A DNA stretch of 64,000 nucleotides, taken from assembly GCF_032027425.1 (NCBI RefSeq), contig NZ_JAVSJA010000001.1, forward strand, positions 3,856,001 through 3,920,000, read 5' to 3'. The notes under the pieces are model-generated. The model had not been told where the DNA came from and did no database searches. It was given only the letters and a program-made list of their open reading frames with translations. The stretch's first letter is position 1. Each line of letters opens with the position of its first letter. This document shows, one piece after another, positions 5,874-22,540 of this stretch. The translations under genes and the position numbers were made by a program. The DNA is from Microcystis wesenbergii NRERC-220 (GTDB taxonomy: Bacteria > Cyanobacteriota > Cyanobacteriia > Cyanobacteriales > Microcystaceae).

Positions 5874-7124
5874 ATGACGCAGGCCCACAATGTACTAACC
5901 CTTACCGAGCCGCCATTGAATTTAGATTTGATTGACCTAGACGAAGACTTCGATGATGAGGATATCGAGTTAGAGCTAGAAGAAGTCAGCGATAGCAACG
6001 ATGGCAAAAAAACCCGCCGCCTTGCCAGCGCTCGTCGTCGCGACGCCGCTAGAAAAAAACCCTATACAGAAGATTCGATTCGGATTTATCTGCAAGAGAT
6101 CGGCAGGATTCGGTTATTGAGAGCGGAAGAGGAGATCGAATTAGCGAGAAAAATCGCCGATCTACTGAAATTAGAACGCATTCGCGAGGACTTTCGCCTC
6201 TATAGCGATGCCGAATGGGGAAAACAGGTTTTCTTGTTCGAGCGCATCGAAAAAATTATCGCCGAAAAATCGGAAAAAGACCCGAAATTATCGGATATTA
6301 AGGCTTATTTAGCTAAGACGGAGCTAATGGCTCCCATGGTGGAAGAATGGCTGGCGAAATCAAAGGAATACTTATCGGCCTTTAAGCGTCGTTTGTACCA
6401 TGGTCGTCGCGCTAAGGAAAAAATGGTACAATCGAACCTGCGTTTAGTGGTTTCGATCGCCAAGAAATACATGAATCGCGGTCTTTCCTTCCAAGATTTA
6501 ATTCAAGAAGGTTCCCTCGGTTTGATCCGCGCCGCCGAAAAATTCGACCACGAAAAGGGTTATAAATTCTCCACCTATGCCACTTGGTGGATTCGTCAAG
6601 CCATCACCCGGGCGATCGCCGATCAATCCCGCACCATTCGACTCCCCGTCCACCTCTACGAAACCATCTCCCGGATCAAAAAAACCACCAAGATTCTTTC
6701 TCAGGAAATGCGTCGCAAACCCACCGAGGAAGAAATCGCCACCAAGATGGAGATGACCATCGAAAAACTGCGTTTTATTGCCAAATCTGCCCAATTACCG
6801 ATTTCTCTAGAGACTCCTATCGGTAAAGAAGAAGATTCCCGTTTAGGAGACTTTATCGAAGCGGATGGGGAAACCCCAGAAGATGAAGTTTCTAAAAATT
6901 TGTTACGCGAGGATTTAGAAAACGTCCTCGATACCCTTAGTCCTCGCGAACGCGATGTGCTGCGGCTGCGCTACGGTTTAGATGACGGCCGGATGAAAAC
7001 ACTCGAAGAAATCGGCCAGATTTTCAACGTCACTCGCGAGCGCATTCGTCAAATAGAAGCCAAGGCCCTGCGGAAACTGCGTCACCCTAACCGTAATAGT
7101 ATCCTCAAAGAGTACATTCGTTAA
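5874..7124 (+). CDS. sigA: primary RNA polymerase sigma factor (group 1)
   Basis: SigA/RpoD1 directs RNA polymerase to housekeeping promoters. The 416-residue protein has an acidic N-terminus (residues 15-40), region 1.2 ([17 protein letters not shown]), regions 2.1-2.4 with the canonical [15 protein letters not shown] for -10 melting and recognition, region 3, and region 4.2 with the helix-turn-helix ([19 protein letters not shown]) that reads the -35 box. The ATG at 5874 follows AAGGAG. The length and the full acidic start favour the essential group 1 factor over the shorter group 2 paralogues. A clear intrinsic terminator follows. Confidence 0.93.
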
Positions 7125-7147
7125 TTTCCCGTCCTTAAAAAACTAGA

Positions 7148-7176
7148 AACTGAGTCTCCTTGAGGCTCAGTTTTAT
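7148..7176 (+). terminator. intrinsic terminator of sigA
   Basis: AACTGAGTCTC pairs with GAGGCTCAGTT (11 bp, one G-U) around a 3-base loop, followed by a T-rich tail. It starts 23 bases after the sigA stop. Confidence 0.8.
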
Positions 7177-7245
7177 TGTTATCTACACTTTCCTCGATCG
7201 AATTTATTATGATATGAATTAACAATAGTTATATCTACTAAAAAA

Positions 7246-7575
7246 GTGTCAGAAACTCCAAAAATACAGATGAATTTTAACGCGCCGGTGACAGGAGTGG
7301 CGGGTAATGTGGAAGGCGATATGATCGTCAATCCCCAACCGAAAACCCCAGCCGAATCCGCCCGGGAAATTCAGGATTTATTAACCCAGCTTCAAGCCAC
7401 AAATCCGACAGCGAGCGAAGCGGAATTAGTGCGGCAGGTGATTAGAAATAATCCCACGCTTAAAGCCAGATTAATTAACGCGATTAAACAGGGTGGAACT
7501 GAAGCTTTAAAGGTCTTTTTTCCCGTGATTAGTATTCCGATAGAAACGATTCGGGGATTTCTAGAAGTCGAATAA
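7246..7575 (+). CDS. small NACHT-associated tagged helical protein (locus A)
   Basis: A 109-residue protein with a GTG start, giving MSETPK, the same first residues as its homologue at 17623-17979. Residues 10-27 hold the tag FNAPVTGVAGNVEGD. The same motif, FNAPVDTVAGNVQGN, stands at the C-terminus of the NACHT protein encoded convergently at 7741-10188. The rest (AESAREIQDLLTQLQ... GGTEALKVFFPVISIPIETIRGFLE) is predicted helical and ends in a hydrophobic segment around residues 84-104. It shares this layout with the locus B protein. No established domain is recognised. I infer a partner (adaptor or effector) of the NACHT NTPase. Confidence 0.7.
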   Translation: MSETPKIQMNFNAPVTGVAGNVEGDMIVNPQPKTPAESAREIQDLLTQLQATNPTASEAELVRQVIRNNPTLKARLINAIKQGGTEALKVFFPVISIPIETIRGFLEVE

Positions 7576-7583
7576 TTTAATCC

Positions 7584-7732
7584 AAGTTGCTAGTTATAAT
7601 CATCGCCGTTCCGATCCCCCTAAATCCCCCTTAAAAAGGGGGACTTTGAGTCTGGTTCTCCCCTTTTTTTTCAAGAGGGGGCAGGGGGGAGCAAACCTAG
7701 AAATCATAGACAAAATTTGTAACTAGCAACTT
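7584..7732. mobile_element. MITE-like element between the two genes of NACHT locus A
   Basis: Perfect 13-bp terminal inverted repeats, AAGTTGCTAGTTA at 7584-7596 and its reverse complement at 7720-7732. The interior contains a CCCCCTTAAAAAGGGGG palindrome and a T8 run with GAGGGGG, which could end transcription from both sides. A similar CCCCCTTAGAAAGAGGG unit lies in NACHT locus B near 18080-18105. Confidence 0.65.
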
Positions 7733-7740
7733 ACGTTAAT

Positions 7741-10188
7741 TTACTCTTTTCCTTCCTTGTGATTGATCAGGTTTCCTTGAACATTGCCAGCGACTGTGTC
7801 AACTGGTGCATTAAAGTTAAAGTTTTGAATTATTTGGGGAGAGGTGGAAGATTGAGGAGTTTCCGATAATGATGCTTTTTCTATAGAAGATTTTTTCTCG
7901 GAGTCGGTAGGCAGGGACATCGGTTCGAGAGAATATTGTTTGGTTTTGCCTTGAATTGAAGTTTTAATATCGATTAAATCATAAAGTGTATTAATTGATA
8001 TTGTTTCAAGTTTTTTTTGATAAAGTGAACCCAAGATTTTGGTAGTGGCATTATTTTTTAAAATATTGACAGCGTCGAAACGAACTGAATTATCTTGATC
8101 GTCGATAGCTTGCAATAGTAGAGATAATACATTTTCTATAGAAAAATTTTTTGATTGTAAAACCGCACTCTGTCTAATTTCTTCATCAGGGCTATTTATA
8201 GCATCATACAAATCTTCAATCGATTCGTATAGTGTAATATCCCTACCAAACAAAACTCTCGTAAACGGTCCGTAAAATTTAACTCTTTCAAAAGAAGGTA
8301 TCTTATTGTATAAAGGATGGTGTCCGTCGAGATAGGGTTTATAGTGAATAGGAAAGTTTAGACCTTGCTCGTCACAATAATCTTTCAGTTTGTACAATGT
8401 ATCAATGTTAGTAATGTTTTTTATTACATATCCTATTCTCTGGATCAAAAAGCCATCTTTTTCTCCATCTATTAAATCGAGTAAAGCTGATATTAATTTA
8501 GGATCATTTAAAATTTCAAATATATCAATAATTTTAAATTTTATCGCTAACGAAGCAATTTTAAAAATATTTATTAAAGATGGGATATCTTGGGAATGCG
8601 AAATTTGCTCTAGGATGGCTGCCGATTCAAGACAAACTCTAGTTTCTTGATCTTTTAGTAGGTCAATCAGTGTTTCTCTTGATTTTTCCGAAGAAATATT
8701 TCCTAAAGCCCTCACGATGGCGATCTTTTCATCTAACGATACAGATTCTAAATTTTTACATAAAATATTGTGTGCTTTCTCTGAACCCGTTTTTCCCAAC
8801 AAGTACAATCTATATAAAGGAGAAACCGGTAACTCCGCTACCCATTGAACCGTTTCCTCCTGCCATAACGGATTAACCTCCCCCGCTAACCTTGCTCCTA
8901 AACCTAAATCTACCGCTAACGCCAACCTAACGACCCGTAACGCCTGTTCTTTATCCTTTAGTAACCCCAACATCAGCGCGATGGGTTCTGTCCACTTGAG
9001 ATAGTTGAGATAGCGCCACTGTAAATCCCTGTCGTTCAACTTCTGCAACTGTTGTAATAAATACTCGGCGGCATAGTATTCCTGTATTAGTTGGTGATGA
9101 AACTCGATACTGTCTTCGTCTAGCTTTTGGATGAGATGATGATTTTCTAAATCACTCAACCAGAGACACTGACGAGTAGTAGAATAGTCATTTTCGTTAT
9201 TTTCTTGTAAAAATTCTCCGATAATACTTTTAGCCTCTCTGATTCCAATCGCTGGCTTATCTTTACGCTTAGTCATTTCAAAGGCCAGATATTCCAGAGA
9301 TTCCGACCATAATAGCTTAGAATCAGCTAGAGTTGTAACGTCCGCTTTGCTCTGCTTGTAATGCTGGCGAGTAAACCGCCTAAAAGTCTCTCCTAAATTA
9401 TCGGGAATTTTCTCGTTCTCATCGTAGACGAAACATAGCATCAACAAAAATAAGGGCGTTTCCCCTAACTTTTTTAATCGTTCATTATTCAACTGATTTA
9501 ATAGTTTTTCTCCTTTGTCTTCTAGATATCCTCGGACAAACGATCTCATCCTTCCTTCGGTTAGTGGTTGCATCGTTAACTGTTTCTCGATTCCTAAATT
9601 TCCCCATATCCCTAAGTCTCGTGTGGTAAAAACCATCGGCACTTTTGGATGAGCGTCTCTAAACACTTTTACCTCTTTAGTCGCCTCCTCGGAAGGTAAT
9701 TCATTAACTCCATCGAGCATTACAAACAATCGATTATCGAATAACAGTCTATCGATCTCTGAAGCTTTCAAATAAATCTTATGGCTTTTCAAAAAGTTAT
9801 TAATCAGGGCAATTGTTGAAGTTTTGTGCGATCGCAATTTGATCAAAACCGGAATTCGGGTTTCATCTCTTTTTCCTGCTTCCTCGAACAATAACCGCAC
9901 CAAAGCCGTCGATTTCCCTGATCCCGGTTTCCCCTGTAGCAACACATGATCGTCCGAATCGTCCGAATCAAGGCTATATTTCCGTAATCCCGCTAAAATC
10001 TCTAACCTTTGGGGTTGTTTATCCTTTTTCCCCAGAAATGTCTCATCTGGAACCGTCTCCACTTGTAAATCCTCTAGTGGAGAGGAATTACTAAACCAAT
10101 CATTTTTAACACGAATAATCGTGTCAACTTGCCACCATTTTTGATAGCTCTTTTGAATCGAATCGAAATAGAGTTGCCAGTTTACCAT
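7741..10188 (-). CDS. NACHT-domain STAND NTPase with HEAT-like repeats and C-terminal tag (locus A)
   Basis: An 815-residue STAND-type ATPase. Walker A is GKPGSGKST (residues 86-94), Walker B is LFVMLDGVNEL (154-164), and MVFTTRDL (185-192) is the sensor strand. A winged-helix-like part with FHHQLIQEYYAAE follows. From about residue 450 onward come degenerate HEAT-type helical repeats. The last 30 residues hold the tag FNAPVDTVAGNVQGN (about 792-806). NACHT proteins of this architecture act as signalling switches in bacterial anti-phage immunity. It is a paralogue of the protein at 18730-21498, sharing LNYLKWTEP and LGARLAGEVN. Its conserved partner is the small protein at 7246. Function is inferred from family and context. 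Confidence 0.85.
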   Translation of the reverse strand: MVNWQLYFDSIQKSYQKWWQVDTIIRVKNDWFSNSSPLEDLQVETVPDETFLGKKDKQPQRLEILAGLRKYSLDSDDSDDHVLLQGKPGSGKSTALVRLLFEEAGKRDETRIPVLIKLRSHKTSTIALINNFLKSHKIYLKASEIDRLLFDNRLFVMLDGVNELPSEEATKEVKVFRDAHPKVPMVFTTRDLGIWGNLGIEKQLTMQPLTEGRMRSFVRGYLEDKGEKLLNQLNNERLKKLGETPLFLLMLCFVYDENEKIPDNLGETFRRFTRQHYKQSKADVTTLADSKLLWSESLEYLAFEMTKRKDKPAIGIREAKSIIGEFLQENNENDYSTTRQCLWLSDLENHHLIQKLDEDSIEFHHQLIQEYYAAEYLLQQLQKLNDRDLQWRYLNYLKWTEPIALMLGLLKDKEQALRVVRLALAVDLGLGARLAGEVNPLWQEETVQWVAELPVSPLYRLYLLGKTGSEKAHNILCKNLESVSLDEKIAIVRALGNISSEKSRETLIDLLKDQETRVCLESAAILEQISHSQDIPSLINIFKIASLAIKFKIIDIFEILNDPKLISALLDLIDGEKDGFLIQRIGYVIKNITNIDTLYKLKDYCDEQGLNFPIHYKPYLDGHHPLYNKIPSFERVKFYGPFTRVLFGRDITLYESIEDLYDAINSPDEEIRQSAVLQSKNFSIENVLSLLLQAIDDQDNSVRFDAVNILKNNATTKILGSLYQKKLETISINTLYDLIDIKTSIQGKTKQYSLEPMSLPTDSEKKSSIEKASLSETPQSSTSPQIIQNFNFNAPVDTVAGNVQGNLINHKEGKE

Positions 10189-10540
10189 AAAGACTGGTGT
10201 GGGAAGATATTTCTAGAATAGCTCAACTTTTTCCCCTATGGGTGTATCGATGAGAATATTCCTGTGCAATCGTTCGAGAAAATTCGCCAGTTTTTACCCT
10301 GTTAAATGCCATCAGAAAAAAAACAAAATTATTTATAGCAGTTTTCATCAGAATGAGGCATGGGCAAGGGGCTTAAACCCTTTGTTGACAAAACTTGTCG
10401 ATACCTCAGTAACGCGAAAAGCGCTATATTAACATAAAAGGCTTTAATATTGACAGGAAATATTTCATTGATTAGAATAAATAAATATATGATAACATCT
10501 GTAAGTTTCTCCACCAAAATTATAGTCGTGACTTCGCCCA
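10189..10540. other. intergenic stretch without recognisable gene
   Basis: About 350 bases between the divergent NACHT gene and the nuclease-family remnant. I see short AT-rich sequence and no coding frame, RNA gene or clear repeat that I can support. Confidence 0.5.
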
Positions 10541-10897
10541 ATGGTTATTGGTAGAACCCCTCTCCCTCACCCAATCGCTACAGCAATTCTGGCGGGTTTA
10601 GTATTAAGTAAAGAAATAATCAGAAGCTTATTAAGGGAAGAAATTATGCGCGAATCAGTCATTTATCAGGATATCCGGGAAAGTGGAAAAGCACAAGGAA
10701 GAGAGGAAGGAAGACGAGAAGAAGCGGTTTCTTTGATTCTACGGCTACTTAACCGTCGTTTAGGTGAAATATCCTCGACTTTAAGCCAACAAATCCAAGA
10801 ACTATCTCTAGAACAATTAGAAACTTTAGGAGAAGCGCTGCTCGATTTTACCAGCTTGACAGATCTGACCACTTGGTTATCGGAGATAGAAACTTAA
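10541..10897 (+). pseudogene. C-terminal remnant of a DUF2887/Rpn-type putative nuclease
   Basis: The 118-residue frame contains LREEIMRESVIYQDI, a run of charged residues (KAQGREEGRREEAVSLILRLL), and a leucine-rich end (LSLEQLETLGEALLDF). This is the typical C-terminus of cyanobacterial DUF2887/DUF4351 proteins in the Rpn/PD-(D/E)XK transposase-like group. The catalytic N-terminal two thirds, which should carry the PD-(D/E)XK residues, are absent, and upstream sequence shows no remains. The first 20 residues (MVIGRTPLPHP...) do not look native. I therefore read it as a truncated relic, though a short expressed protein cannot be excluded. Confidence 0.55.
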
Positions 10898-10969
10898 ATC
10901 CCCAGAAGATGTCTGCTCGTCCTGCGTTAAATTTTTAAATACTGGCTTTTTTCCCGTATTGATTTAACC

Positions 10970-12442
10970 ATGGCTACCAGCGATATCTCCAATTCTACTC
11001 ACTCATCCCCAAAACCCCGGCCAAAACTGGGACTTTTCACCATGTTTCGCTTAGGACTCTTTCAGATGGGACTAGGTATTATGTCCCTGCTGACTTTGGG
11101 GGTTCTCAATCGGATTATGATCGATGAGTTAAAAGTTTTACCCTTTCTCGCCGCAGCTGCGATCGCTATGCACCAGTTTGTTAGTCCAGCACGCATCTGG
11201 TTTGGGCAAAGATCCGACGGTAAAACTATTTTTGGTCATCATCGCAGCGGTTATGTCTGGATTGGGGCGGCAGTTTTTACCGCTTTAGCTTTTATTGCTT
11301 TGCAGGTAGTCTGGCAATTGGGACTTAGTATTCAAACTTCGGGATGGAATACCGTTTCCTACGCTTGGATTGCCCTCTTAGCCTTAATTTTCGCCCTCTA
11401 CGGACTCGCTTTAAGTGCCAGTTCCACCCCTTTTTCCGCCCTCTTGGTGGATGTGTCCGATGAAGATAATCGATCGCAATTAGTTGGTATAGTTTGGTCA
11501 ATGCTGATGGTGGGAATCGTCGTCGGGGCGATCGTTAGTTCTCGTTTGCTGGATACTCCCAATATCTGCGGTACAGATATTTTGACCTATGATCCGACTC
11601 AATCAGCCCCTATAGCCAATATTCCGCAACTACAGGCGACAATTAACCCCGTGTTCACGATTATGCCCGCTATCGTTTTCGGTCTCTGTATTTTAGCGAC
11701 TTTTGGCGTAGAAAAAAAATATTCTCGTTTTAGTAGTCGGTCCACTCTTGTGCAAAGAGAGGATCAAATTACCTTTAAAGATGCCCTACAAGTTCTCACC
11801 GCTAGTCGGCAAACCGGTTTATTTTTCACCTTCCTGCTGATGATGACTTTGAGTTTATTTATGCAGGATGCAATTATGGAACCGTTTGGTGGCGAGGTTT
11901 TTGGGATGTGTATCGCCCAAACCACCCAATTAAACGCTTTTTGGGGAACTGGAACCCTTTTTGGTATTGCCGCCACGGGATTTATGCTCATTCCCCGCAT
12001 CGGTAAACAAAAAACCACTAAATATGGCTGTATTTTTGCAACAATTTGTTTTATTCTCTTGATTTTTGCTGGCTTTTCTGCTAATCAAAGTTTATTAAAA
12101 TCAAGCTTGCTCTTTTTCGGTTTAGCTTCGGGAATGATTACCGCCGGCGCTACCAGTTTAATGTTAGATTTAACCGCCGCCGAAACCGCGGGAACTTTTA
12201 TCGGCGCTTGGGGATTATCACAAGCGATCGCACGGGGATTAGCCACGGTTTTGGGCGGTACGATTTTAAATATCGGTAAAGTTATCTTTTCTAGTCCAGT
12301 TTTAGCCTATAGCTTAGTTTTCCTCCTGCAAGCATTAGGAATGATCCTGGCAGTTTGGTTATTAAGTCGCGTTGATGTCAAGGAATTTAAGGAAAATGCC
12401 CGAGCAGCGATCGCAACTGTCATCAAAGGAGAGATCGACTAG
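10970..12442 (+). CDS. BCD-family (PucC-like) MFS transporter
   Basis: A 490-residue membrane protein with about twelve hydrophobic segments. It contains the signature N-terminus of the bacteriochlorophyll delivery family (FRLGLFQMGLGIMSLLTLGVLNRIMIDEL) and the loop FGQRSDGKTIFGHHRSGYVWIG. Family members such as PucC and LhaA assist assembly of pigment-binding photosynthetic complexes in purple bacteria. In cyanobacteria the homologues are thought to handle chlorophyll or its delivery in the thylakoid. The ATG at 10970 gives a short polar N-terminus before the first helix. No linked photosynthesis gene is adjacent. Confidence 0.88.
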   Translation: MATSDISNSTHSSPKPRPKLGLFTMFRLGLFQMGLGIMSLLTLGVLNRIMIDELKVLPFLAAAAIAMHQFVSPARIWFGQRSDGKTIFGHHRSGYVWIGAAVFTALAFIALQVVWQLGLSIQTSGWNTVSYAWIALLALIFALYGLALSASSTPFSALLVDVSDEDNRSQLVGIVWSMLMVGIVVGAIVSSRLLDTPNICGTDILTYDPTQSAPIANIPQLQATINPVFTIMPAIVFGLCILATFGVEKKYSRFSSRSTLVQREDQITFKDALQVLTASRQTGLFFTFLLMMTLSLFMQDAIMEPFGGEVFGMCIAQTTQLNAFWGTGTLFGIAATGFMLIPRIGKQKTTKYGCIFATICFILLIFAGFSANQSLLKSSLLFFGLASGMITAGATSLMLDLTAAETAGTFIGAWGLSQAIARGLATVLGGTILNIGKVIFSSPVLAYSLVFLLQALGMILAVWLLSRVDVKEFKENARAAIATVIKGEID

Positions 12443-12556
12443 CAAAAGCAAGCAAAAGTGAGAGAACAGGAGAATTAGCCCGATTGGGGGAAGTTGGTTA
12501 GCCGCTTTTTTCCTATCCTAAAAGTAGAGAGGAAAACGAAAGAGGAGGCTAAAACG

Positions 12557-12994
12557 ATGAAAAGGACTTTAATGATTGCCCTAGGTTCCCTAGCTTCCTT
12601 ACTGCTGATTAACCCCGTCGGTGCGGAAAATCCCCGACAGGTGCAACAATTATTGAATACGCGGGAATGTCCGGGGTGTGATCTCCAGGGTGCAGATTTA
12701 AGAGGGGCGCATCTAATCGGTGCAGATTTGAGAAAAGCGAATTTACAGGGAGCTAATCTGGAGGAAGCCAACTTAGAGGGCGCAGATTTGACCGATGCCA
12801 ACCTAGAAGGCGCAAATTTAACCGCAGCTTTTCTGACTAATGCCAGTTTGAATCAAGCTAATCTCAATGGAGTTAATTTCACCAGTGCCATGATCTATGA
12901 TGCTGATGTGACGGGTGCATCAATGGAGAGAATTAACTTGACAAATGCTCAGATTTATGGTACAGGCATCGCTGTCGGTGGTGAAAATCCTTAG
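12557..12994 (+). CDS. secreted pentapeptide-repeat protein
   Basis: The ATG at 12557 follows AGAGGAGG and yields MKRTLMIALGSLASLLLINPVGAE, a convincing signal peptide; starts further upstream lack it. The mature part carries a CPGCDL motif and then about fifteen pentapeptides of the A(D/N)LXX type (for example ADLRGAHLIGADLRKANLQ), which fold as a right-handed quadrilateral beta helix. The length is about 145 residues. Such lumenal or periplasmic repeat proteins are abundant in cyanobacteria and mostly of unknown function. It is monocistronic with its own terminator. Confidence 0.85.
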   Translation: MKRTLMIALGSLASLLLINPVGAENPRQVQQLLNTRECPGCDLQGADLRGAHLIGADLRKANLQGANLEEANLEGADLTDANLEGANLTAAFLTNASLNQANLNGVNFTSAMIYDADVTGASMERINLTNAQIYGTGIAVGGENP

Positions 12995-13027
12995 ATGTTC
13001 TTGTCCTCAAAATATAGTTAATTTTGT

Positions 13028-13057
13028 AACAGATGCAAGTGTTGCGTCTGTTTTTTT
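13028..13057 (+). terminator. intrinsic terminator behind the pentapeptide gene
   Basis: AACAGATGCAA pairs with TTGCGTCTGTT (one G-U) around a GTG loop, followed by seven T. Confidence 0.8.
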
Positions 13058-13067
13058 ATACACTTTT

Positions 13068-13170
13068 AAGTAGGTAGGTGTTAAAAATTGTCAGATACCC
13101 CCCTTATCAAGGGGGGCAGGGGGGATCGAACCCAAAATCTATCTTCAATTTAATTATAACCAGCTACTTA
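13068..13170. mobile_element. MITE-like repeat, AAGTAGGTAGGTG family, copy 1
   Basis: It begins AAGTAGGTAGGTGTTAAAAA and ends with TTCAATTTAATTATAACCAG followed by CTACTTA; the two ends are imperfect inverted repeats. The centre is CCCCCCTTATCAAGGGGGG plus AGGGGGGATC. A near copy in the same orientation lies at 14318-14433, so the sensor gene between them is flanked by direct repeats. Confidence 0.7.
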
Positions 13171-13200
13171 CTAAATAGTTTGAGTTATAAAATAACCGGC

Positions 13201-14307
13201 ATGACTCAACTCACACCGCGCCCTAGTGTCTTAATTGTCGATGATTTGCCCAATAATGTGCGGCTATTGTCGATTATGCTCACCGAGAAGGGATATCAGG
13301 TACGCAAAGCGATTAATGGACAGATGGCCCTGAATACAGTGCGATCGCTAATTCCCGATCTGATCCTTCTCGATATTAATATGCCCGATCTCAATGGTTA
13401 TCAAGTTTGTGAACAGTTAAAAGCTGATGAAAAAACCAGAGAAATTCCCGTGATTTTTATCAGCGCTCTTGATGATGTCTTAGATAAAGTCAAAGCTTTT
13501 CAAGTGGGAGGTGTCGATTATATTTCTAAACCTTTTCAAGGGGAAGAAGTGATGGCACGCATTGAAAATCAATTAACTATTTGCCGTCAAAAAAAACAAC
13601 TACAAAACGAAATTAAAGAACGTCAAAAAACTGAAGAAACTTTAGAAATTTATCTTCATGCTGTCTCTCACGATCTCCGCAATCCCGTGATCGGGATGTC
13701 AATGATCTTAAATAATTTAATTAAAAATTCTCAGGGAGAAACTAAAGAAGTATCCCTGAAGATTTTACAACAGATGGCCAACAGTTGCGATCGACAATTA
13801 ACTTTAATTGATTCTCTCGTCGAAACCCAACAAAATGATCTTTGGGGAGTTTCCCTAGAACTAAAGCCTTTATCTCTCTACGAAATCGGTCAACAGATCG
13901 GTCAGGAATGGGAGTTAAGATTAAGGGAAAATCAAGCAACTTTAATTAATAATTTTTCTCCCGATTTACCCTTAGTTAATGCCGATGCTCACCATCTCTG
14001 GCGAGTTTTTGAGAATTTATTAGCCAATGCCCTTAAACATAATCCTCAAGGGATAATTATCACTTTGTCAGCTAGACTAGAGGGCAATTATCTCCGGTGT
14101 ACTATTGCCGATAATGGGGTGGGAATTAGCGAAACCCAGAGAAAACGATTATTCGATCGCTATCAACGAGGCAACAATAATAATCAGATTAGTTTAGGAC
14201 TAGGTTTATATCTATGTCGTCAAATTATCCAAGCTCACGGAGGTGAAATTGGCATTATGAATAATGACGAAAAAGGTTCACAATTTTGGTTTACTTTGCC
14301 CTACTAA
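13201..14307 (+). CDS. response regulator/histidine kinase hybrid
   Basis: The ATG at 13201 gives MTQLTPRPSVLIVDD, placing the receiver domain at the start; upstream in-frame codons lie in the MITE. The 368-residue protein has a receiver domain (acidic DD near residue 15, phospho-acceptor in LILLDINMPDLNG, Lys in YISKPF), a coiled linker, a HisKA domain with HAVSHDLRNPVIG (phospho-His), and an ATPase domain with the N box (ENLLANALKHN), DNGVGI and GLGLYLCRQI. It is probably a soluble cytoplasmic kinase. No cognate regulator is adjacent and the signal is unknown. Confidence 0.9.
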   Translation: MTQLTPRPSVLIVDDLPNNVRLLSIMLTEKGYQVRKAINGQMALNTVRSLIPDLILLDINMPDLNGYQVCEQLKADEKTREIPVIFISALDDVLDKVKAFQVGGVDYISKPFQGEEVMARIENQLTICRQKKQLQNEIKERQKTEETLEIYLHAVSHDLRNPVIGMSMILNNLIKNSQGETKEVSLKILQQMANSCDRQLTLIDSLVETQQNDLWGVSLELKPLSLYEIGQQIGQEWELRLRENQATLINNFSPDLPLVNADAHHLWRVFENLLANALKHNPQGIIITLSARLEGNYLRCTIADNGVGISETQRKRLFDRYQRGNNNNQISLGLGLYLCRQIIQAHGGEIGIMNNDEKGSQFWFTLPY

Positions 14308-14317
14308 GCTGTTGACT

Positions 14318-14433
14318 AAGTAGGTAGATGTTAAAAACTTTCAGACACCCCCCTTATCAAGGGGGGATCAAGGGGGGATCAAGGGGGGATTAAGGGGGGA
14401 TATATCTTCAATTTAATTATAACCAGCTACTTA
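14318..14433. mobile_element. MITE-like repeat, AAGTAGGTAGGTG family, copy 2
   Basis: Same ends and core as the copy at 13068-13170, but the core unit AAGGGGGGATC is repeated three to four times, making this copy longer. It begins 10 bases behind the kinase stop codon. Confidence 0.7.
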
Positions 14434-14552
14434 TCTACATTACTCGTTAAGACTGTCTATGAGCAGGAAGAGCCAGTTTAAACATTTGTTTTTTCCTGTT
14501 ACCGGGGAAAGAAAGGGCTAAGATCTATTTAGATCAACTATCTTCACTTGCC

Positions 14553-17339
14553 ATGGCCGCTAATGCTGACTATTCTGCCCATTCTAGGCTTAACTTGCAA
14601 CAACCTTGGCATACCTATCCGGTGGAAACCACCCTATCTATCCTCGGTAGTTCGGCTGTTAATGGCCTCAATAGGGAGCAAATCGCCGAAAGAATTAAAT
14701 ATTATGGCAAAAATGAACTACAAGAACGTCCAGGGCGCAGTAATTGGCAAATTCTCCTAGATCAGTTTACCAATATCATGCTCCTCCTCTTAATTGCCGT
14801 GGCCATAATTTCCGGAGGACTGGATTTACTGGAATTGCAGCGCGGTCATCTGGCTAAAATTGGTGTTCCCTTCAAAGATACGATCGCTATCTTAACAATT
14901 GTCATCCTCAATGGTATCCTCGGATATCTGCAAGAAAGTCGCGCCGAAAAAGCTCTGGCCGCTTTAAAAAAACTCTCCTCTCCCCAAGTTAATGTTATCC
15001 GCGAGGGTCAACGCAGAGAAATAGACGCGGTTAATCTTGTCCCTGGGGACATCATGCTGATTGAAGCGGGAACCCAAATCAGCGCCGACGGCCAAATTAT
15101 CGAAGCTTTTAACCTGCAAATTCGCGAATCGGCCTTGACAGGAGAGGCAAATAGTGTTAATAAATCCGCCTCCATTGACCCCTTAGACAGAGATACTCCC
15201 CTTGGCGATCGCTTAAATTTTGTCTTTACTGGAACAGAGGTACTGCAAGGCCGGGCCAAGGTCATCGTTACCAATACGGGGATGACAACGGAATTAGGCA
15301 AAATCGCTCAAATGTTAGCAACAGTCGGCAATGAACCCACTCCTCTCCAAAAAAGAATGACTCACTTGGGTAATGTCCTTGTTGCTGGTTCTCTCATTCT
15401 AGTGGCCCTGACTATTACCATCGGCCTGATCAATGCAGGTTGGTCGGCCCTAGAGGAATTGGTCGAAGTTTCCCTTAGTATGGCAGTAGCCGTCGTTCCC
15501 GAAGGATTACCCGCAGTTATCACCCTAACTCTCGCCCTAGGTACCCAACGCATGGTCAAACGTCAGGCCTTGATTCGTAAACTGCCGGCAGTAGAAACCC
15601 TGGGTTCCGTTAATGTGATCTGTTCCGACAAAACCGGGACGCTAACCGAAAATAAAATGATTGTACGCGAGATAGAGACGGTTAATCGCAGTTTTTTAGT
15701 TACTGGGGAAGGATATAGCCCAAAAGGACAATTTTTAGACACCGAGCAACGGGCGATCGATCCCAAAACCGATCTAGAATTACATCATCTCTTAATTGCC
15801 AGTGTCCTCTGCAACGATGCCAGTTTAGACCTCGATAACGGTCACGATAGCATTTTAGGCGATCCCACGGAAGGAGCCTTATTAGTTTTAGGGGCGAAAG
15901 CGGGCTTAAATTTATCCCTAACCAAGCAAGAGTTCCCTAGAATCGCTGAAATCCCCTTTTCTTCCCAAAGAAAGCGAATGTCGGTCATTTGTCAAGGAGT
16001 CAATCGCGTACTATTTACCAAAGGTTCCCCGGAATTAATCCTTGAACAGTGTCTCTCCTACCAATCGGGATTAGAAAGTCTTCCTTTTGGGGATAGGGAA
16101 AAAGAAAAAGTCTTAGTCGCTAACAATGCTATGGCTAACAGGGGTTTACGAGTCTTAGGATTAGCGTATAAAAACCTGATTTATCCACCAGAATCAACTG
16201 AAATCAGCGAAGATGCCCTAATTTGGTTAGGAATGGTCGGTATGATCGACGCAGCGCGACCGGAGGCACAAATCGCCGTGGCTAGGTGTCGAGAAGCGGG
16301 AATCCGTCCAATCATGATCACCGGCGATCATCAATTAACCGCTCTAGCGGTGGCTAAGAGTCTTGGTATTGCCCAAGCGGGAGCTTTAGTGATCTCAGGG
16401 CGAGAATTAGATAAATTATCACCAATTCAGCTAGAAAACATCATTGACAAAACTAACATCTATGCCCGTGTCTCCCCCGAACATAAATTAACTATTGTCC
16501 GCGCCTTGCAAAAAAAGGGTAAATTTGTTGCTATGACCGGAGATGGGGTGAATGATGCTCCGGCCCTGAAACAAGCAGATATCGGCATTGCCATGGGAAT
16601 CGCCGGCACCGATGTCACCAAAGAGGCTAGTGATATGATTCTCCTTGATGATAATTTTGCCACCATCGTCGCTGCCACGGAAGAAGGGCGAGTGGTTTAT
16701 AACAATATTCGCAGTTTTATTAAATATATTCTCGGCAGTAATATCGGGGAAGTGATTACTATCGCTGCTTCGCCTCTTTTGGGTTTAGTTACTCCCCTAA
16801 CTCCCCTACAAATTCTCTGGATGAATTTAGTTACTGATGGTTTACCTGCTTTAGCTTTGGCAGTGGAACCCGCTTCTCCTAATATTATGCGTCGCCCTCC
16901 TTTTAGTCCCCAAGAAAGTATTTTTGCTCGCGGTTTGGGTAGTTATATTGTGAGAATTGGGATTATTTTTTCGATTATTAATATCACTCAAATGTTAATC
17001 GCTGTGCGCTTGGATCCGCTTTTTGGTAATACTGGTTCATGGAAAACTATGGTTTTTACTACTCTCTGTTTAGCTCAAATGGGTCATGCCATTTCCGTGC
17101 GATCGAGCGATCATCTTACCATAGAAATGAATCCTTTGACTAATCCCTATCTCTGGGTAGCAGTAACCCTGACGACAATTTTTCAACTGATGTTAATCTA
17201 TGTTCCTGCTCTGCGGGATTTTTTCGGTACTCAATTTTTAACTAAAGAAGAATTATTAATCTGTTTGGGATTTAGTACCTTGTTATTCGTTTGGGTGGAG
17301 TTAGAAAAATTATTTACCCGTTGGTATCATCGGCGATAA
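14553..17339 (+). CDS. P-type cation-transporting ATPase (P2 class, calcium-type)
   Basis: A 928-residue integral membrane ion pump. Asp359 in [12 protein letters not shown] is the phosphorylated residue. [10 protein letters not shown] marks transmembrane helix 4 and is the P2-class motif. LTGEA is the actuator loop, [12 protein letters not shown] the hinge, and [12 protein letters not shown] helix 6, with the Asn/Asp pair that in SERCA-type pumps binds Ca2+. The N-terminal cation-ATPase domain and four C-terminal helices are complete. Family homologues in cyanobacteria (PacL/PMA1) export calcium or other cations. The exact ion cannot be settled from sequence alone. The ATG at 14553 is well placed. 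Confidence 0.9.
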
Positions 17340-17386
17340 TCAGGGAGCTTTTTTCATTGTTCAGTAAACAGTAAACAGTAAACTGA

Positions 17387-17470
17387 TACTAAATCCCTTG
17401 AGCATAGGTGACTTACGAGGACAGGCAAAAGGGAGAATAAATAATCAGTTTTTAATAACCAGATTTAGTA
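17387..17470. mobile_element. MITE-like repeat with TACTAAATC/GATTTAGTA ends
   Basis: Nine-base inverted ends enclose GGCAAAAGGGAGAATAAATA and TCAGTTTTTAATAACCAG. Related sequence occurs at about 25715-25786, 27041-27080 and 56968-57007, so this is a dispersed family. It lies in the 280-base gap behind the ATPase gene. Confidence 0.55.
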
Positions 17471-17622
17471 TTATTATCGATACCTTCTAGAGAAAATCAA
17501 GGTTTGCAGAGATGATAAAGATAATCAGTATTTAGGATCAGAGATCGATAGTCAAGCGACTTGTATTGTAAGCGGCGATTCCGATCTAATCGTTTCTAAC
17601 TAACAGGATTGATATTCTAGGT

Positions 17623-17979
17623 TCACTCACTTAAATTAGCAGTTTCTAGCCATTTTTTACCCATTTCAATGGGAATACCGAGGAGAGGACAGAGGACTTT
17701 AATTAATTCAATTCCTCCCGTGATTAAAATGCTTCTTAGACGAGAATTTTTCTTGATTTCTGCGTCAACTTGTGCGACAAAAGTTTGTTTTTCAATTTCG
17801 GTATTAGTGGGATAAGTTTGGGCAAGTTGGCTGATAAGTTGTTGGATTTCTTGAGCGGCTTCGGCTAAATTTTGGGGTGTGGCGTAATTATGTTGAACAG
17901 CTTTTTGATCTCCTTGCACCGTATCGGCAAAGTTAGCAATATTTGCTCCACGAAGGTCATATTTAGGAGTTTCTGACAT
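17623..17979 (-). CDS. small NACHT-associated tagged helical protein (locus B)
   Basis: I choose the internal ATG at 17977-17979, which gives MSETPK as in the locus A homologue and a 118-residue protein. Residues 7-25 hold the tag YDLRGANIANFADTVQGDQ. The NACHT-HEAT protein of this locus ends with the matching YDFRGATIGNLAHNVQGSQ. The body (LAEAAQEIQQLISQLAQTYPT ... GGIELIKVLCPLLGIPIEMG) aligns with the locus A protein and ends in a hydrophobic segment. It lies downstream of and in the same direction as the NACHT-HEAT genes, 127 bases behind the last HEAT ORF. No known domain is recognised. I infer a partner of the NACHT protein. Confidence 0.7.
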   Translation of the reverse strand: MSETPKYDLRGANIANFADTVQGDQKAVQHNYATPQNLAEAAQEIQQLISQLAQTYPTNTEIEKQTFVAQVDAEIKKNSRLRSILITGGIELIKVLCPLLGIPIEMGKKWLETANLSE

Positions 17980-18106
17980 AGGATTAAAAGATTGAAGATT
18001 ACTGATGATAATTATAGCATCCATAATGGCAAAACTGACACCATTTCTCTGAATGAAAGCGATACGTCGAATTCAAGTCCCCCTTAGAAAGAGGGATTTA
18101 GGGGGA

Positions 18107-18217
18107 TCAAAATAAGGATTGAGCGGCTTTAATCCGAATACTTGGATTCTTGTCTGTGAATAGTCTTTTGGCAAGAGTTCTGATAATTAAATCGAGGGAT
18201 TCTGTACTCAATTTCAT
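18107..18217 (-). CDS. 36-codon HEAT-like mini-ORF or repeat remnant
   Basis: One base behind the stop of the 169-residue HEAT gene an ATG (18215-18217) opens a frame of 36 codons ending at 18107. It contains LDLIIRTLAKRLFTDKNPSI and then RIKAAQSL, a single HEAT-type helix pair with the DKNPSIRIKAA loop. Its end runs up to a CCCCCTTAGAAAGAGGG palindrome. It may be a translationally coupled mini-protein or the truncated remainder of a longer repeat gene. Confidence 0.4.
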   Translation of the reverse strand: MKLSTESLDLIIRTLAKRLFTDKNPSIRIKAAQSLF

Positions 18218-18218
18218 A

Positions 18219-18728
18219 TCAGTTTACTGCATAACGAGAGCCAATTTTACCGAGGGCATCAACAGCACTGAAACGAACGCTATCATCTTCATCGTAACAA
18301 ACATTTACTAGATCAGGAATAACATCTTCTAGTCCAATTTCACCTAAAGCAATTGTGGCTGTGACACGAACTTTTACTTCCGTATCTTGTAGGGATTGAA
18401 TGAGATAGGATATTGCTTTTTCACTACCAATTTTTCCGAGAGATTCCGCCGTGATTATCCGAATATCGGGATTAGTATCAGATAAGTAGGAAGCTAGATA
18501 AGGAATTGCGGATTCATTGCCAATTTCTCCTAAAGCTCGAATCAGATTTAGGCGAACATTAAGATCATTTTCTCCTATTAAATGGGATACTAAGGTGTCG
18601 GCAAGGCTGCTATTGCCAATTTTGCCCAAGGCTTCGGCAGCTTTAGCGCGGATCTGGGGGAGAGAATCGTTGAGTTTATTCAATAAAGTATTGATGGCGA
18701 TTTGGGTGTTATTAAGTTGCTGAACCAT
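18219..18728 (-). CDS. HEAT-repeat protein coupled to NACHT gene
   Basis: The frame extends up to 18794, but the ATG at 18726-18728 (MVQQLNN) lies one base behind the stop of the NACHT-HEAT gene and fits translational coupling better; a start at 18794 would overlap the upstream gene by 65 bases. The 169-residue product consists of about five HEAT/PBS-lyase-type repeats with the pattern (P)xIRxxAAEALGKIGxxxA. It is a helical scaffold for protein contacts. It probably continues the repeat function of the NACHT protein as a separate chain, possibly after fission of a once longer gene. Confidence 0.75.
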   Translation of the reverse strand: MVQQLNNTQIAINTLLNKLNDSLPQIRAKAAEALGKIGNSSLADTLVSHLIGENDLNVRLNLIRALGEIGNESAIPYLASYLSDTNPDIRIITAESLGKIGSEKAISYLIQSLQDTEVKVRVTATIALGEIGLEDVIPDLVNVCYDEDDSVRFSAVDALGKIGSRYAVN

Positions 18729-18729
18729 G

Positions 18730-21498
18730 TTATTTTTTCTCTGGGTTATTGTTATTAGTTTGCTGGGGATAATTCTGTTGGCTTCCTTGCACATTATGAG
18801 CTAAATTGCCAATAGTAGCTCCTCTGAAATCATAGGTAATAGATGAGGTTTCAGAGGTTGGGGATTGAGTGGAGTAAGAAATAGATTCAGGGAGGGGGTG
18901 ATAGTATTTAAGTTTGTTTTGAATTTTGTCTAGTGCTTCTCTAGCTTGAGAGAGAGTATTGCCATTATTTAATGTGACAAAATCAGGATTTTTCAGGCAT
19001 TTGATAAGTTCAGTCATCGCTGTTTCTGTGCCAATATTACCCAAAGCCTCAGCTGCCTGCGAACGAACATACTTATTAGAGTCTTCTAAAGCCTTGAGTA
19101 ACCCCGCAATCGCTGTTTCTGAGCCAATTTTACCCAAAGCGAAGGCTGCCTTCCAACGAACATCTTTATTAGAGTCTTCTAAAGCCTTGAGTAACCCCGT
19201 AATGGCTGTTTCTGAGCCAATTTTACCCAAAGCCTCGGCTGCGTTGCTACGAACATACTCATTAGAGTCTTTTAAAGCCTTGAGTAACCCCGCAATGGCT
19301 GTTTCTGAGCCAATATTACCCAAAGCCTCGGCTGCCTTCCCACGAACATCTTTGTTAGAGTGTTCTAAAGTCTTGAGTAATCCCGCAATGGCTGTTTCCG
19401 AGCCAATATTACCCAAAACCCAGACTGCGTTCCCACGAACATCCTCATCAGAGTCTTCTAAAGCCTTGAGTAACCCCGGAATGGCTGTTTCTGAGCTAAT
19501 CTTAGCCAAAGCCGCGGCTGCCTTCCAACGAACATACCCATCAGAGTCTTTTAAAGCCTTGAGTAACACCGGAATTGCTTCTTCTGAGCCAATCTTACCC
19601 AAAGCGAAGGCTGCACTCCTACGAGCATTCCTATCAGAGTTTTCTAAAGCCTTGAGTGACCGAGGAATTGCTGTTTCTGAGCCAATATTACCCAAAGCGA
19701 AGGCTGCATTCCCACGAACATCTTTATCAGAGTGTTCTAAAACCTTGAATAACCCCGCAATGGCTGTTTCTGAGCCAATTTTACACAAAGCCACGACTGC
19801 GTTGCTACGAACATCTTTATCAGAATCTTTTAAAGCCTTGAGTAATCCCGGAATGGCTGTTTCTGAGCCAATTTTACCCAAAGCGAAGGCTGCCTTCCAA
19901 CGAACATCTTTATTAGATTCTTCCAAAGCCTTGAGTAATCCCGCAATGGCTGTTTCTGTGCCAATCTTACCCAAAGCCTCGACTGCGTTCCCACGAACAT
20001 CCTCATCAGAGTCTTTTAAAGCCTTGAGTAACTCATTAACAACTTGATTAGACTTTGTTAATCCCAATAACTCCACCTTAAACCGTTTCGGCACATCCAA
20101 CCCAAGCACTAACCCCACTGTCTGCTTTTGAAACTTAAAGTTGACTTCTCCTGCTAACCTCGCTCCTAATTTTAAATCAATCTCTAACCCTAATTTAACC
20201 ACCCGTTTTGCTTGGGTTTCATTATCCAATAACCCCAACAGCAACGCCATAGGTTCTGTCCATTTGAGATAATTCAAATAGTCCCACTTTAACTGCTCAT
20301 CCCTGAGATGGGGTAACTTTTTCTTTAATTCCTCAGCCGTGTAATATTCTTGAATCAGTTGATGGCGAAAAGCAATTTTATCATTACCTTCTAGGTGAAT
20401 TAGATGATATTTCAATAAATCTTCTAGCCACTTCAATGCAGTATTATCAGGATAAGAAATTTTGCCCTGTAAAAACTTTATTAATATCTCCTCTGCTTGA
20501 TTCTTAGAAATAGATAACTTTATCTCCGTTGGGTTTTCACCAGTTGTCATCGTCCACGCCAAATGTTGCAGTAGTCGATTTTGCCAGAGATGCAAATCCT
20601 CTGAAATTTTAACTCCTTTGCGTATGTCAATTTTTTTTGTAAAACCTCGGAAAATTAAGCCTAAATTAGCAGGAATTTTGTTCTGATTATCATCAAAAAC
20701 TGAACAAAGCATCCACAAAAGTAGAGGAGTTTCTCCCAATTCCTTGAGACGATTTCCCAACTGTTTAAGCATTTCTTCGCCTTTTTCAGGCAAATAGGCC
20801 TTGACAAAATCCCGCATCTGTGGTTCAGTCAGGGGAAGCATTTCCAGCTTTTTTTCAATGTTTAAGTCGTCGCTGCCTAAATCCCTTGTTGTGAAAATCA
20901 TCGAAATTTCTGCATACTGCTGGCGAAAGTTTTTTAAATTCTGTCGTGCAGTATCTGAGGGCAACTCATTGATACCATCAAATAATAATAATGGTCTAAA
21001 ATTCTGATTTTCTAACAGCCAACTTTCTAGGGTATTACTATCAATAATTAATTTATGGCGTTTCAGGAATTGTAAAATTAAATCAAGAATTGAGGTTTCA
21101 TACAAGCGTAATTCGATGAGAATGGGAATTTGAATGATTTTAGCCTGATTTTGTTGATTTGGGCGCAACCTTTGCGCCCCTACAGATTCTTCTAATAATA
21201 ATCTGGCTAAAGCGGTCGATTTTCCTGAACCGGGACGACCTTTTAAAAGAACGTGATTAGTCGCATACTTGCGTAAACCATCTAAAACTGTGAATCTTTC
21301 GGTTTTTTCTGGTCTTTCTGCTCTTTCTTGTGGGTTTTGTGGTTCTTTTTCAATCGTCTGCACCTGCAAATCCATTAAAGGTGCAGTTTTCGACGGGCGT
21401 GTTTTTCCCTCTACGTCCGTGAGGGTGTAAAATGTCTCCCACTGGGCGTACTTTTCCGAGTCCGAGATTGATTTGAGATAGGGAGTCCAGTCAATCAT
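18730..21498 (-). CDS. NACHT-HEAT repeat STAND NTPase with C-terminal tag (locus B)
   Basis: A 922-residue paralogue of the locus A protein. Walker A is GRPGSGKST (residues 87-95), Walker B is PLLLFDGINEL (169-179), the sensor strand is IFTTRDLG, and the winged-helix-like end has FRHQLIQEYYTAEEL. From about residue 485 there are eleven full 31-residue HEAT repeats and a partial twelfth, nearly identical in sequence (IAGLLKALEDSNKDVR... ALGKIGSETA). Variation concentrates at the residue after DVR (G, W, S or R) and in the adjacent helix. The tag YDFRGATIGNLAHNVQGSQ lies near the C-terminus. Residues 105-114 are an in-frame insertion made by a palindromic repeat. I infer that the HEAT array senses a ligand and the NTPase switches signalling. 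Confidence 0.85.
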   Translation of the reverse strand: MIDWTPYLKSISDSEKYAQWETFYTLTDVEGKTRPSKTAPLMDLQVQTIEKEPQNPQERAERPEKTERFTVLDGLRKYATNHVLLKGRPGSGKSTALARLLLEESVGAQRLRPNQQNQAKIIQIPILIELRLYETSILDLILQFLKRHKLIIDSNTLESWLLENQNFRPLLLFDGINELPSDTARQNLKNFRQQYAEISMIFTTRDLGSDDLNIEKKLEMLPLTEPQMRDFVKAYLPEKGEEMLKQLGNRLKELGETPLLLWMLCSVFDDNQNKIPANLGLIFRGFTKKIDIRKGVKISEDLHLWQNRLLQHLAWTMTTGENPTEIKLSISKNQAEEILIKFLQGKISYPDNTALKWLEDLLKYHLIHLEGNDKIAFRHQLIQEYYTAEELKKKLPHLRDEQLKWDYLNYLKWTEPMALLLGLLDNETQAKRVVKLGLEIDLKLGARLAGEVNFKFQKQTVGLVLGLDVPKRFKVELLGLTKSNQVVNELLKALKDSDEDVRGNAVEALGKIGTETAIAGLLKALEESNKDVRWKAAFALGKIGSETAIPGLLKALKDSDKDVRSNAVVALCKIGSETAIAGLFKVLEHSDKDVRGNAAFALGNIGSETAIPRSLKALENSDRNARRSAAFALGKIGSEEAIPVLLKALKDSDGYVRWKAAAALAKISSETAIPGLLKALEDSDEDVRGNAVWVLGNIGSETAIAGLLKTLEHSNKDVRGKAAEALGNIGSETAIAGLLKALKDSNEYVRSNAAEALGKIGSETAITGLLKALEDSNKDVRWKAAFALGKIGSETAIAGLLKALEDSNKYVRSQAAEALGNIGTETAMTELIKCLKNPDFVTLNNGNTLSQAREALDKIQNKLKYYHPLPESISYSTQSPTSETSSITYDFRGATIGNLAHNVQGSQQNYPQQTNNNNPEKK
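18970..20050 (-). repeat. tandem 93-bp repeats encoding the HEAT array
   Basis: Eleven full copies of a 93-base unit, each encoding 31 residues, lie head to tail within the NACHT-HEAT gene. Long runs are identical between copies at DNA level, for example TTACCCAAAGC and GCCTTGAGTAA. This points to recent unit duplication or gene conversion. The antisense frame across the array stays open only because of this periodicity. Confidence 0.9.
21161..21184. repeat. GGGCGCAA palindrome inserted in-frame in the NACHT gene
   Basis: GGGCGCAA-CC-TTTGCGCCCC followed by TAC matches palindromic units found between genes (1070-1095, 33874-33890). Here it lies within coding sequence and adds about ten residues (VGAQRLRPN) between the Walker A helix and the next strand. 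The locus A paralogue lacks them. Confidence 0.7.
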
Positions 21499-22100: not shown

Positions 22101-22532
22101 CTACACTTCAACCAAATGAACCCAACTTAGAGAAGATTTAACGCTGTTAAATAAGCGTTTATCGCTAGTGTATAAATTTGCTTGAAATCGTTGAGCTAAT
22201 ACTAGATAATGGGCATCATAAGTAGCAGGAAGATTCAAGGTTTGCGAAATTTCTATTGCTTGGTAATGGAGGTAATGATCTCCATGAAACTGAATAGGTA
22301 AATCTAAGACTTCTGTAAGGAGGGTTTGCGCTTCCGTCTCCAAAATTTGACCAGCTTTTTTCAGACGATAAAATACGTTAGTGACTTCGTAACATAATAA
22401 AGTTGGTGCAATCACTAAATTTTCCTCGGTCATCCATTTTTGCCAGAGTTGACTGTACATTGTTACAGAAGGTTCAACCGTTGTTAAACGAACTATAAAA
22501 CTAGAATCAACACAGATAAATGTATTAGTCAT
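22101..22532 (-). CDS. PIN-domain (VapC-like) toxin
   Basis: A 143-residue PIN-fold ribonuclease candidate. It begins MTNTFICVDSSF with the first acidic residue (D9). The conserved Glu is in LLCYEVTNVF, the third acidic residue in TYDAHYLVLAQ, and the fourth in TSDKRLFN, which completes the metal-binding set of PIN nucleases. VapC-type toxins cut tRNA or other RNA when their antitoxin is lost. It lies 8 bases behind the antitoxin gene in the same direction. A deleted duplicate of the pair lies just downstream. Confidence 0.85.
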   Translation of the reverse strand: MTNTFICVDSSFIVRLTTVEPSVTMYSQLWQKWMTEENLVIAPTLLCYEVTNVFYRLKKAGQILETEAQTLLTEVLDLPIQFHGDHYLHYQAIEISQTLNLPATYDAHYLVLAQRFQANLYTSDKRLFNSVKSSLSWVHLVEV

Positions 22533-22540
22533 TATTTTCT

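Follow-up and report, generated by a model that had tools for sequence, protein, structure and literature searches.

Matching tags on NACHT-HEAT proteins and their small helical neighbours suggest a plug-and-socket code for immune-type signalling in Microcystis

How does a bacterial sensor protein find its own partner when the genome carries two similar sets of both? The window analysed here, a 64,000-nucleotide stretch of Microcystis wesenbergii NRERC-220 (contig NZ_JAVSJA010000001.1, positions 3,856,001 to 3,920,000 of the forward strand), raises this question at two loci, A and B, each encoding a large protein with a NACHT module and HEAT repeats (P0002 at A, P0003 at B) and a small protein whose C-terminal 77 or so residues belong, by profile, to one family. 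Combining a NACHT/STAND NTPase with superstructure repeats (HEAT_2), both large proteins have the make-up of NACHT-type NLRs; the Pfam NACHT match of P0003 (26.3 bits) lies slightly below the cut-off of 26.7, and its NTPase region aligns to P0002 (47% identity) and six further members with an invariant P-loop. An initial annotation had described a short tag at the end of each NLR and near the start of each small protein, better matched within than between loci, and had proposed that the tags join each sensor to its own effector or adaptor and prevent cross-talk between the paralogous loci. All four tags are present in the translated genes (Table 1), and local alignment gives 75 (A) and 71 (B) for the NLR and small protein of the same locus against 35 and 40 for the crossed pairs. 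A degenerate DNA pattern for the FNAPV motif has exactly two matches in the window, at these tags, where 0.05 are expected. Gene order differs between the loci, A being convergent, tail to tail, and B co-directional with a HEAT-repeat open reading frame (ORF) in between. It is fairly probable that each locus encodes a two-component immune-type signalling pair, in which the NLR recruits the effector through homotypic tags.

The argument begins with covariation in other genomes. NACHT-HEAT loci were collected from 31 of 386 genomes of the phylum, the best 80 of 265 named records and loci gathered earlier (numbered here with the prefix L), yielding 108 distinct NACHT-HEAT C-termini, 78 of which are, in the profile view, complete and unfused to the small domain. 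When each 50-residue tail was aligned to all other non-NACHT ORFs of at least 60 residues in its locus, 15 of the 78 matched a neighbour's N-terminal tag with scores of 59-95, the neighbour being a small-domain protein in 14 cases and a variant helical small protein in one (L053); with four HEAT-to-HEAT matches excluded (L202, L191, L186, L155), all remaining comparisons scored 43 or less. Removal of L145 and L194, near-duplicates of L128 and L196, leaves 13 non-redundant pairs whose own-pair scores sum to 984, as against a permuted mean of 485 (standard deviation 69, maximum 861 in 200,000 permutations). Similarity among NLR tags follows similarity among effector tags with NACHT identity controlled (partial Mantel r 0.755, p 5e-5, n=13), and tag similarity correlates with NACHT identity at only r 0.13 and 0.10. 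Chance as the cause of tag matching is ruled out by the tail survey, the permutation and the comparison of further loci described below, and NACHT relatedness as the cause of the covariation by the partial Mantel result. Both the covariation and the genomic linkage on which the initial annotation had staked its proposal recur elsewhere, the linkage in these 15 tails; fused single-chain versions exist as well, and 14 of 27 small proteins at further loci have a tag-matched neighbour. The supposed barrier to cross-talk, tested indirectly, is not supported: paralogues within a genome carry tags no more divergent than those of different genomes (scores of at least 50 in 7/92 comparisons within genomes and 407/5473 between; at least 80 in 5/92 and 126/5473), and selection for orthogonality within genomes is not supported. 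At L053, short ORFs between the NACHT gene and the tagged small protein (6291-6881) resemble, by eye, a toxin-antitoxin pair.

Closely related loci show what happens when a tag changes. In a comparison of window B with L122 of M. aeruginosa, the NACHT regions are 83% and the effector domains 95% identical and both tags differ (at L122, KYTIHAKNVQIIEKGDGQIQ on the NLR and KYNIVQPQNVQIIEQGDGIIHN on the effector). Own tags score 71 at window B and 59 at L122, and crossed tags 25 and 30; the NLR tails of the two loci score 28 against each other, and their effector-tag windows 84, because those windows take in the HNYATPQNLAE joint as well as the conserved start. In the DNA of the two effector genes similarity falls at the junction of tag and domain: per 30 bases, the domain keeps 25-30 identical, the tag 13-16 and the sequence upstream of the tag mostly 13-21. 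In the L122 NLR the HEAT repeats and the tag are separated by a TIR domain (TIR_2, 4e-14). These observations suggest that both tags were replaced together in a related Microcystis strain, as in a plug-and-socket code for immune signalling, and if so, matched and exchanged tags already exist in nature, with which specificity can be tested directly. Concordant tag differences likewise separate L034 from L128 (NACHT 69% identical), L053 from L076 (68%) and L034 from L188 (61%; effector domain 60%). Among 12 Microcystis genomes two loci, L246 and L247, are mismatched: the NLR tail is VQII-tagged and the effector has a YD(L/F)RGA tag, with an orphan piece of YDxxGAT tail besides; in both the effector has an in-frame stop, and at L246 the NACHT ORF is interrupted as well. 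An interrupted effector in both mismatched loci fits a need for matching (n=2); Microcystis loci L033, L249 and L250, which have no scorable mismatch, also have a NACHT ORF that is interrupted or cut. The arrangement at L246 (10263-12601) and L247 (7001-9117), in which the NLR tail bears a new tag, the interrupted effector the old one, and an orphan copy of the former tail lies downstream, is possibly a snapshot of tag replacement.

Tag matching extends beyond NACHT-HEAT proteins. The small protein B sequence (P0005) finds matches at E 0.001 or better in 66 of 148 genomes of the order, and a 20-row domain profile in 58 of the 386 phylum genomes at 1e-6; 80 loci with flanks were retrieved from the P0005 matches listed across the order, and an iterated profile recovers one ORF in each of 78 of them, together with both window ORFs, L048 and L053 having no small-domain ORF at its threshold. 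Among 76 small-domain proteins surveyed for partners of any type, 20 have a neighbour scoring at least 54, and 17 of these 20 exceed the best of 40 other loci. Besides further NACHT proteins (L038 by Pfam, L040 and L108 by eye, with membrane segments by eye), the partners include pentapeptide proteins (that of L071 also with TRADD-like_N), AbiTii, DUF4062 and DUF6232. In three Microcystis loci (L252, L253, L096) an FNAPV- or FNAAV-tagged small protein is followed by a protein bearing the same tag family N-terminally, which is NB-ARC-TPR by Pfam at L252 and similar by eye at L253 and in the 334-residue L096 piece. A further test drew on 30 regions new to the sample, holding mostly unfused small ORFs and 28 proteins, one of which (L285) was dropped as a TPR-repeat match: 14 of the remaining 27 have a neighbour scoring at least 55, as do 12 of 783 other-locus comparisons, and 11 of the 14 matches exceed every other locus. 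Of the 30 regions, 13 belong to genomes already sampled, and 7 of the other 17 matched; the partners here include NB-ARC-TPR (L277), AAA_35 (L260) and DUF6232 (L278). In this test and in the any-partner survey the other-locus comparison omitted small-domain ORFs, which the own-locus search did not, and no listed own-locus match is a small-domain ORF.

Taken together, the 13 NACHT-HEAT pairs, 16 pairs picked from the any-partner survey at 54 or above (L095 omitted as a copy of L074, and L034, L076 and L084 already among the 13) and the 14 further pairs make 43, with a median identity of 57.5% over a median of 29 residues, and they fall into 16, 12 or 7 tag clusters at thresholds of 55, 50 and 45. 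The position of the tag follows gene order: partners encoded upstream of the effector gene carry it C-terminally in 23 of 24 cases, partners encoded downstream carry it N-terminally in 11 of 16, and 11 of the 12 N-terminally tagged partners lie downstream. Two arrangements deserve separate mention. A DUF4062 protein at L069 (5708-6874), possibly a hub, carries serial tag-like segments, of which one matches the small protein of its locus and another looks, by eye, like the L071 tag family. At L074, L089, L098, L275, L278 and L264 a DUF6232 or similar protein with a C-terminal tag lies directly upstream of a tagged small protein, the Pfam DUF6232 match being present in L074, L089, L098 and L278 only.

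In the small proteins the helical domain is C-terminal, and most members have a variable Asn/Gln/Gly-rich stretch before it; L109, L111 and L086 are examples without a clear tag. Tags are enriched in N (2.9x), Q (1.9x) and G (1.5x), depleted in L (0.23x), and altogether poor in L, C, W and P. An AlphaFold model of P0005 from 85 sequences predicts four helices with block means of 64-88 pLDDT (overall mean 68, pTM 0.49), with most of the tag below 50 and without strands. Searches of the small proteins against Pfam, NCBIfam, PADLOC, PDB sequences and PDB folds gave nothing above cut-off or trustworthy, the fold search with the P0005 model giving nothing at E 0.001. Members matched in 27 plasmid records, all from cyanobacterial genera, are annotated as hypothetical or pentapeptide repeat-containing; 50,697 phage records gave no match. 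Hydropathy over 19 residues reaches 1.6 in 11% of 107 domains (median 0.86; maximum 1.96 in window B and 1.38 in window A) and does not support a general transmembrane segment across the family.

How might such a pair work? The NACHT-HEAT protein would be the sensor and switch, and the small protein a free effector or adaptor consisting of a disordered N-terminal tag of about 25-30 residues and a four-helix domain, the tag belonging to the same family as that of its NLR and pairing with it homotypically. On NACHT oligomerisation, clustered NLR tags would seed assembly of the free effector's tags, most probably into a beta-arch (amyloid-like) stack, and stacking would bring together the helical domains, which could then act, possibly at the membrane. 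Since the helical region is hydrophobic in window B and not in most members, action at the membrane is no more than a guess, and for this subtype. Several elements of the scheme are predictions from sequence, namely direct binding between homotypic tags, amyloid-like assembly, a toxic or growth-arresting effect and a role in phage defence. The natural interpretation of the interaction is recruitment of an effector, since the four sister NACHT-HEAT proteins that were scanned carry, C-terminal to HEAT, a TIR (L122), CHAT (L149) or caspase (L157) domain or EAD8 with a phosphoesterase (L140), where others carry the tag or the tag and small domain; the small protein is therefore read as an output module acting in trans. 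The L140 protein (7001-11533), whose phosphoesterase is calcineurin-like, has a C-terminus similar, by eye, to that at several other loci.

The alternative that survives best concerns the nature of the contact. Tags might pair by an ordinary globular or coiled interaction, or through a common third partner, instead of amyloid-like stacking, and in its favour the predicted tag has no beta structure and its likeness to known amyloid motifs is weak. A common third partner, however, would not require locus-specific tags, and an N/Q/G-rich, leucine-depleted composition is more typical of beta-arch motifs than of coiled coils. Both this composition and the low monomer confidence suit a beta-arch motif, and pairing of the ordinary kind appears unlikely, though it is the most serious of the rivals.

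A different objection is that matching tags have no pairing function and are relics of an ancestral NACHT-HEAT-tag-domain fusion that was split by partial duplication. Fused single chains are indeed common, with 16 distinct NACHT-HEAT ORFs continuing, by profile, through the tag to the small domain and a further three to a variant domain; tags mostly sit at the end of the partner closest to the effector gene; and a few pairs (L220, L128) have most codons in common. The codons of the 13 pairs nevertheless speak of age. Of 206 identical tag residues pooled over pairs, 107 share their codon where codon use predicts 89.6, and of 87 fourfold third positions 32 are the same (26.4 expected), so that synonymous sites are close to saturation, with agreement slightly above random; window A shows no agreement at its 9 fourfold sites and the same codon at 5 of 17 residues. 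Recent DNA copying as a general cause is ruled out by the pooled data. With sites so near saturation, relics should have drifted apart, yet aligned tag residues retain the median identity given above; concordant differences among loci with 60-83% identical NACHT domains, and the presence of one tag family on unrelated NLRs, also argue against relics, which we regard as an improbable explanation. That the small protein is instead an inhibitor or antitoxin-like chaperone, holding the NLR off via the tag, is suggested by the short length of the free proteins, their frequent position directly adjoining the partner gene and the lack of catalytic residues evident by eye, but is just as doubtful in that the domain also follows the tag in fused chains, past the HEAT repeats, where sisters carry TIR, CHAT or caspase, and in that the small protein also pairs with AbiTii and DUF6232 proteins.

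The fused genes have a further peculiarity. A set of 56 distinct fused ORFs, of whatever kind, shows a concentration of Met 41-50 residues ahead of the domain, with 36 occurrences, or 6.4% per residue against a background of 1.2%. Of the 52 Met residues at -61 to -36, 34 have Ser or Ala next (control 30/314) and 21 have a Shine-Dalgarno-like match of at least 4 bases (control 37/314, p 2.6e-6). At the start-like position L152 has GTG and L070 ATA, and 7 of the 56, L152 among them, lack Met at -75 to -25. Start-like codons just before the tag recur inside long fused ORFs, for example in L133, L152 (GTG) and L204. Internal initiation yielding a free tagged effector is the favoured reading of these sequences, over repeated fusions that kept old starts.

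Several observations weigh against the proposed pairing of NLR and effector. The own effector ranks first for only 8 of 13 NLRs and fifth for that of L227, NACHT A's own effector ties with that of L189 and NACHT B's is third, and the own NLR ranks first in 9 of 13 effector columns; specificity therefore lies at the level of the tag family and not of the single pair. A matched neighbour is found within about 6-7 kb in only 20/76 and 14/27 small proteins, so that many have no visible partner, and three matches in each of these two sets do not exceed their best other locus. Locus A is convergent, and opposite-strand pairs number only 3 of 43, window A among them. In L220 the codon is shared at 15 of 18 identical residues and in L128 at 14 of 19, and these single pairs may therefore be younger copies. 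Likeness to two published amyloid NLR peptides is weak, with 7 and 11 of 121 tags scoring at least 30 as against 0.6% of shuffles. The helical domain has no match above cut-off in Pfam or PDB folds, so the label of effector derives from position; interaction, amyloid state and killing are likewise predictions.

A broader proposal, plausible to us and short of probable, is that cyanobacteria use a modular wiring code. One helical effector family would be joined by interchangeable homotypic tags (7 to 16 clusters in 43 pairs) to many unrelated partners, namely NACHT-HEAT, NB-ARC-TPR, membrane NACHT, AAA_35, pentapeptide/TRADD-N, AbiTii, DUF4062 and DUF6232 proteins; facing tags could be exchanged as one recombination block; and the internal start of fused genes would provide a free effector with an identical tag. 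Under such a code, two products from one gene would guarantee matching. If true, partner choice in bacterial NLR signalling becomes readable from sequence, homotypic-motif signalling extends to reversed positions, an uncharacterised helical effector family and non-NLR partners, and tag matching becomes a simple rule by which to recognise effectors that currently go unannotated, as hypothetical or pentapeptide repeat-containing proteins.

Table 1. Features of loci A and B in the window (position 1 is the first letter of the stretch)
Feature	Position	Strand	Description
Small tagged protein A	7246..7575	+	109 residues; ORF start GTG; N-terminal tag and helical effector-like domain
Effector tag A	7276..7320	+	FNAPVTGVAGNVEGD; read from the translated small A gene
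Small protein A, C-terminal domain	7360..7572	+	By profile; no Pfam or NCBIfam match above cut-off and no PADLOC match
NACHT-HEAT protein A (P0002)	7741..10188	-	815 residues; Pfam NACHT 5e-7, HEAT_2 5e-14
NLR C-terminal tag A	7771..7815	-	FNAPVDTVAGNVQGN; read from the translated NACHT A gene
Small tagged protein B ORF (P0005)	17623..18024	-	133 residues; probable true start Met16, ~17979
Small protein B, four-helix domain	17626..17859	-	AlphaFold helices 50-70, 76-92, 94-115, 119-131
Effector tag B	17905..17961	-	YDLRGANIANFADTVQGDQ; AlphaFold confidence <50 across nearly the whole tag
HEAT-repeat-only ORF between NACHT B and small B	18219..18794	-	Overlaps NACHT B end; probable start ~18728
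NACHT-HEAT protein B (P0003)	18730..21498	-	922 residues; NACHT 26.3 bits; HEAT_2 8e-96
NLR C-terminal tag B	18778..18834	-	YDFRGATIGNLAHNVQGSQ; read from the translated NACHT B gene

The start assigned to small protein B, at the internal Met of MSETPK, is probably the true one given the recurrence of that motif. No third copy of the small protein emerged in this genome when P0005, P0001 and the domain profile served as queries, beyond a weak match at E 0.46. Between the two NACHT loci lies a pentapeptide-repeat protein (12494-12994), and adjoining NACHT B are a PIN-domain protein and a small ORF (22101-22792), possibly a toxin-antitoxin pair.

How do these loci stand beside known systems? Characterised bacterial NACHT anti-phage proteins have the NACHT module in common with them and usually carry the effector in the same chain (PMC10907252), whereas here it is a separate tagged protein; P0002 matches EruA (NCBIfam NF058535, bacterial NACHT anti-phage) weakly, at 34 bits for a cut-off of 1000. 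EADs, bDLD and TRADD-N, homotypic adaptors proposed in excerpts of PMC7159879 and PMC8195603 to link effectors to STAND NTPases in multicellular prokaryotes, come from overlapping organisms and neighbouring domain types. EADs are, however, domains with Pfam models, unlike these short variable tags, and none is among the Pfam matches listed for P0001-P0005 (for P0003 the best 25 of 39). The fungal amyloid signalosomes HET-S/NWD2 and HELLP/PNT1, as sketched in part of PMC7889193, similarly have a matched motif and neighbouring genes, the NLR seeding a separate membrane-acting effector; they differ in being fungal and in the N-terminal motif of PNT1. These tags were not found described in the open-licence literature searched, a scope outside which lies the primary paper on bacterial amyloid signalling sequences (BASS), which may hold some of the tag families. 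BASS pairs, NLR/Bell gene pairs of Actinobacteria and Cyanobacteria according to sections of PMC7889193, PMC8086366, PMC9815663 and PMC12261475, are the nearest kind. There, as here, an NLR and a small helical protein encoded next to each other have a short motif in common, in many motif families, and the YDQRGA-type tag of L046 scores 46 against a Methanothrix BASS3-like peptide quoted in PMC8086366. In those descriptions BASS lie at the N-terminus of the NLR and the C-terminus of Bell, an arrangement not seen in the window, where the NLR tag is C-terminal and the effector tag N-terminal to the helical domain; fused forms with an internal start-like codon and non-NLR partners (AbiTii, DUF6232) likewise set these loci apart. 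In tag position, NACHT-HEAT sensor, helical domain and breadth of partners, they thus differ from BASS as the relevant passages of PMC7889193, PMC8086366 and PMC9815663 present them.

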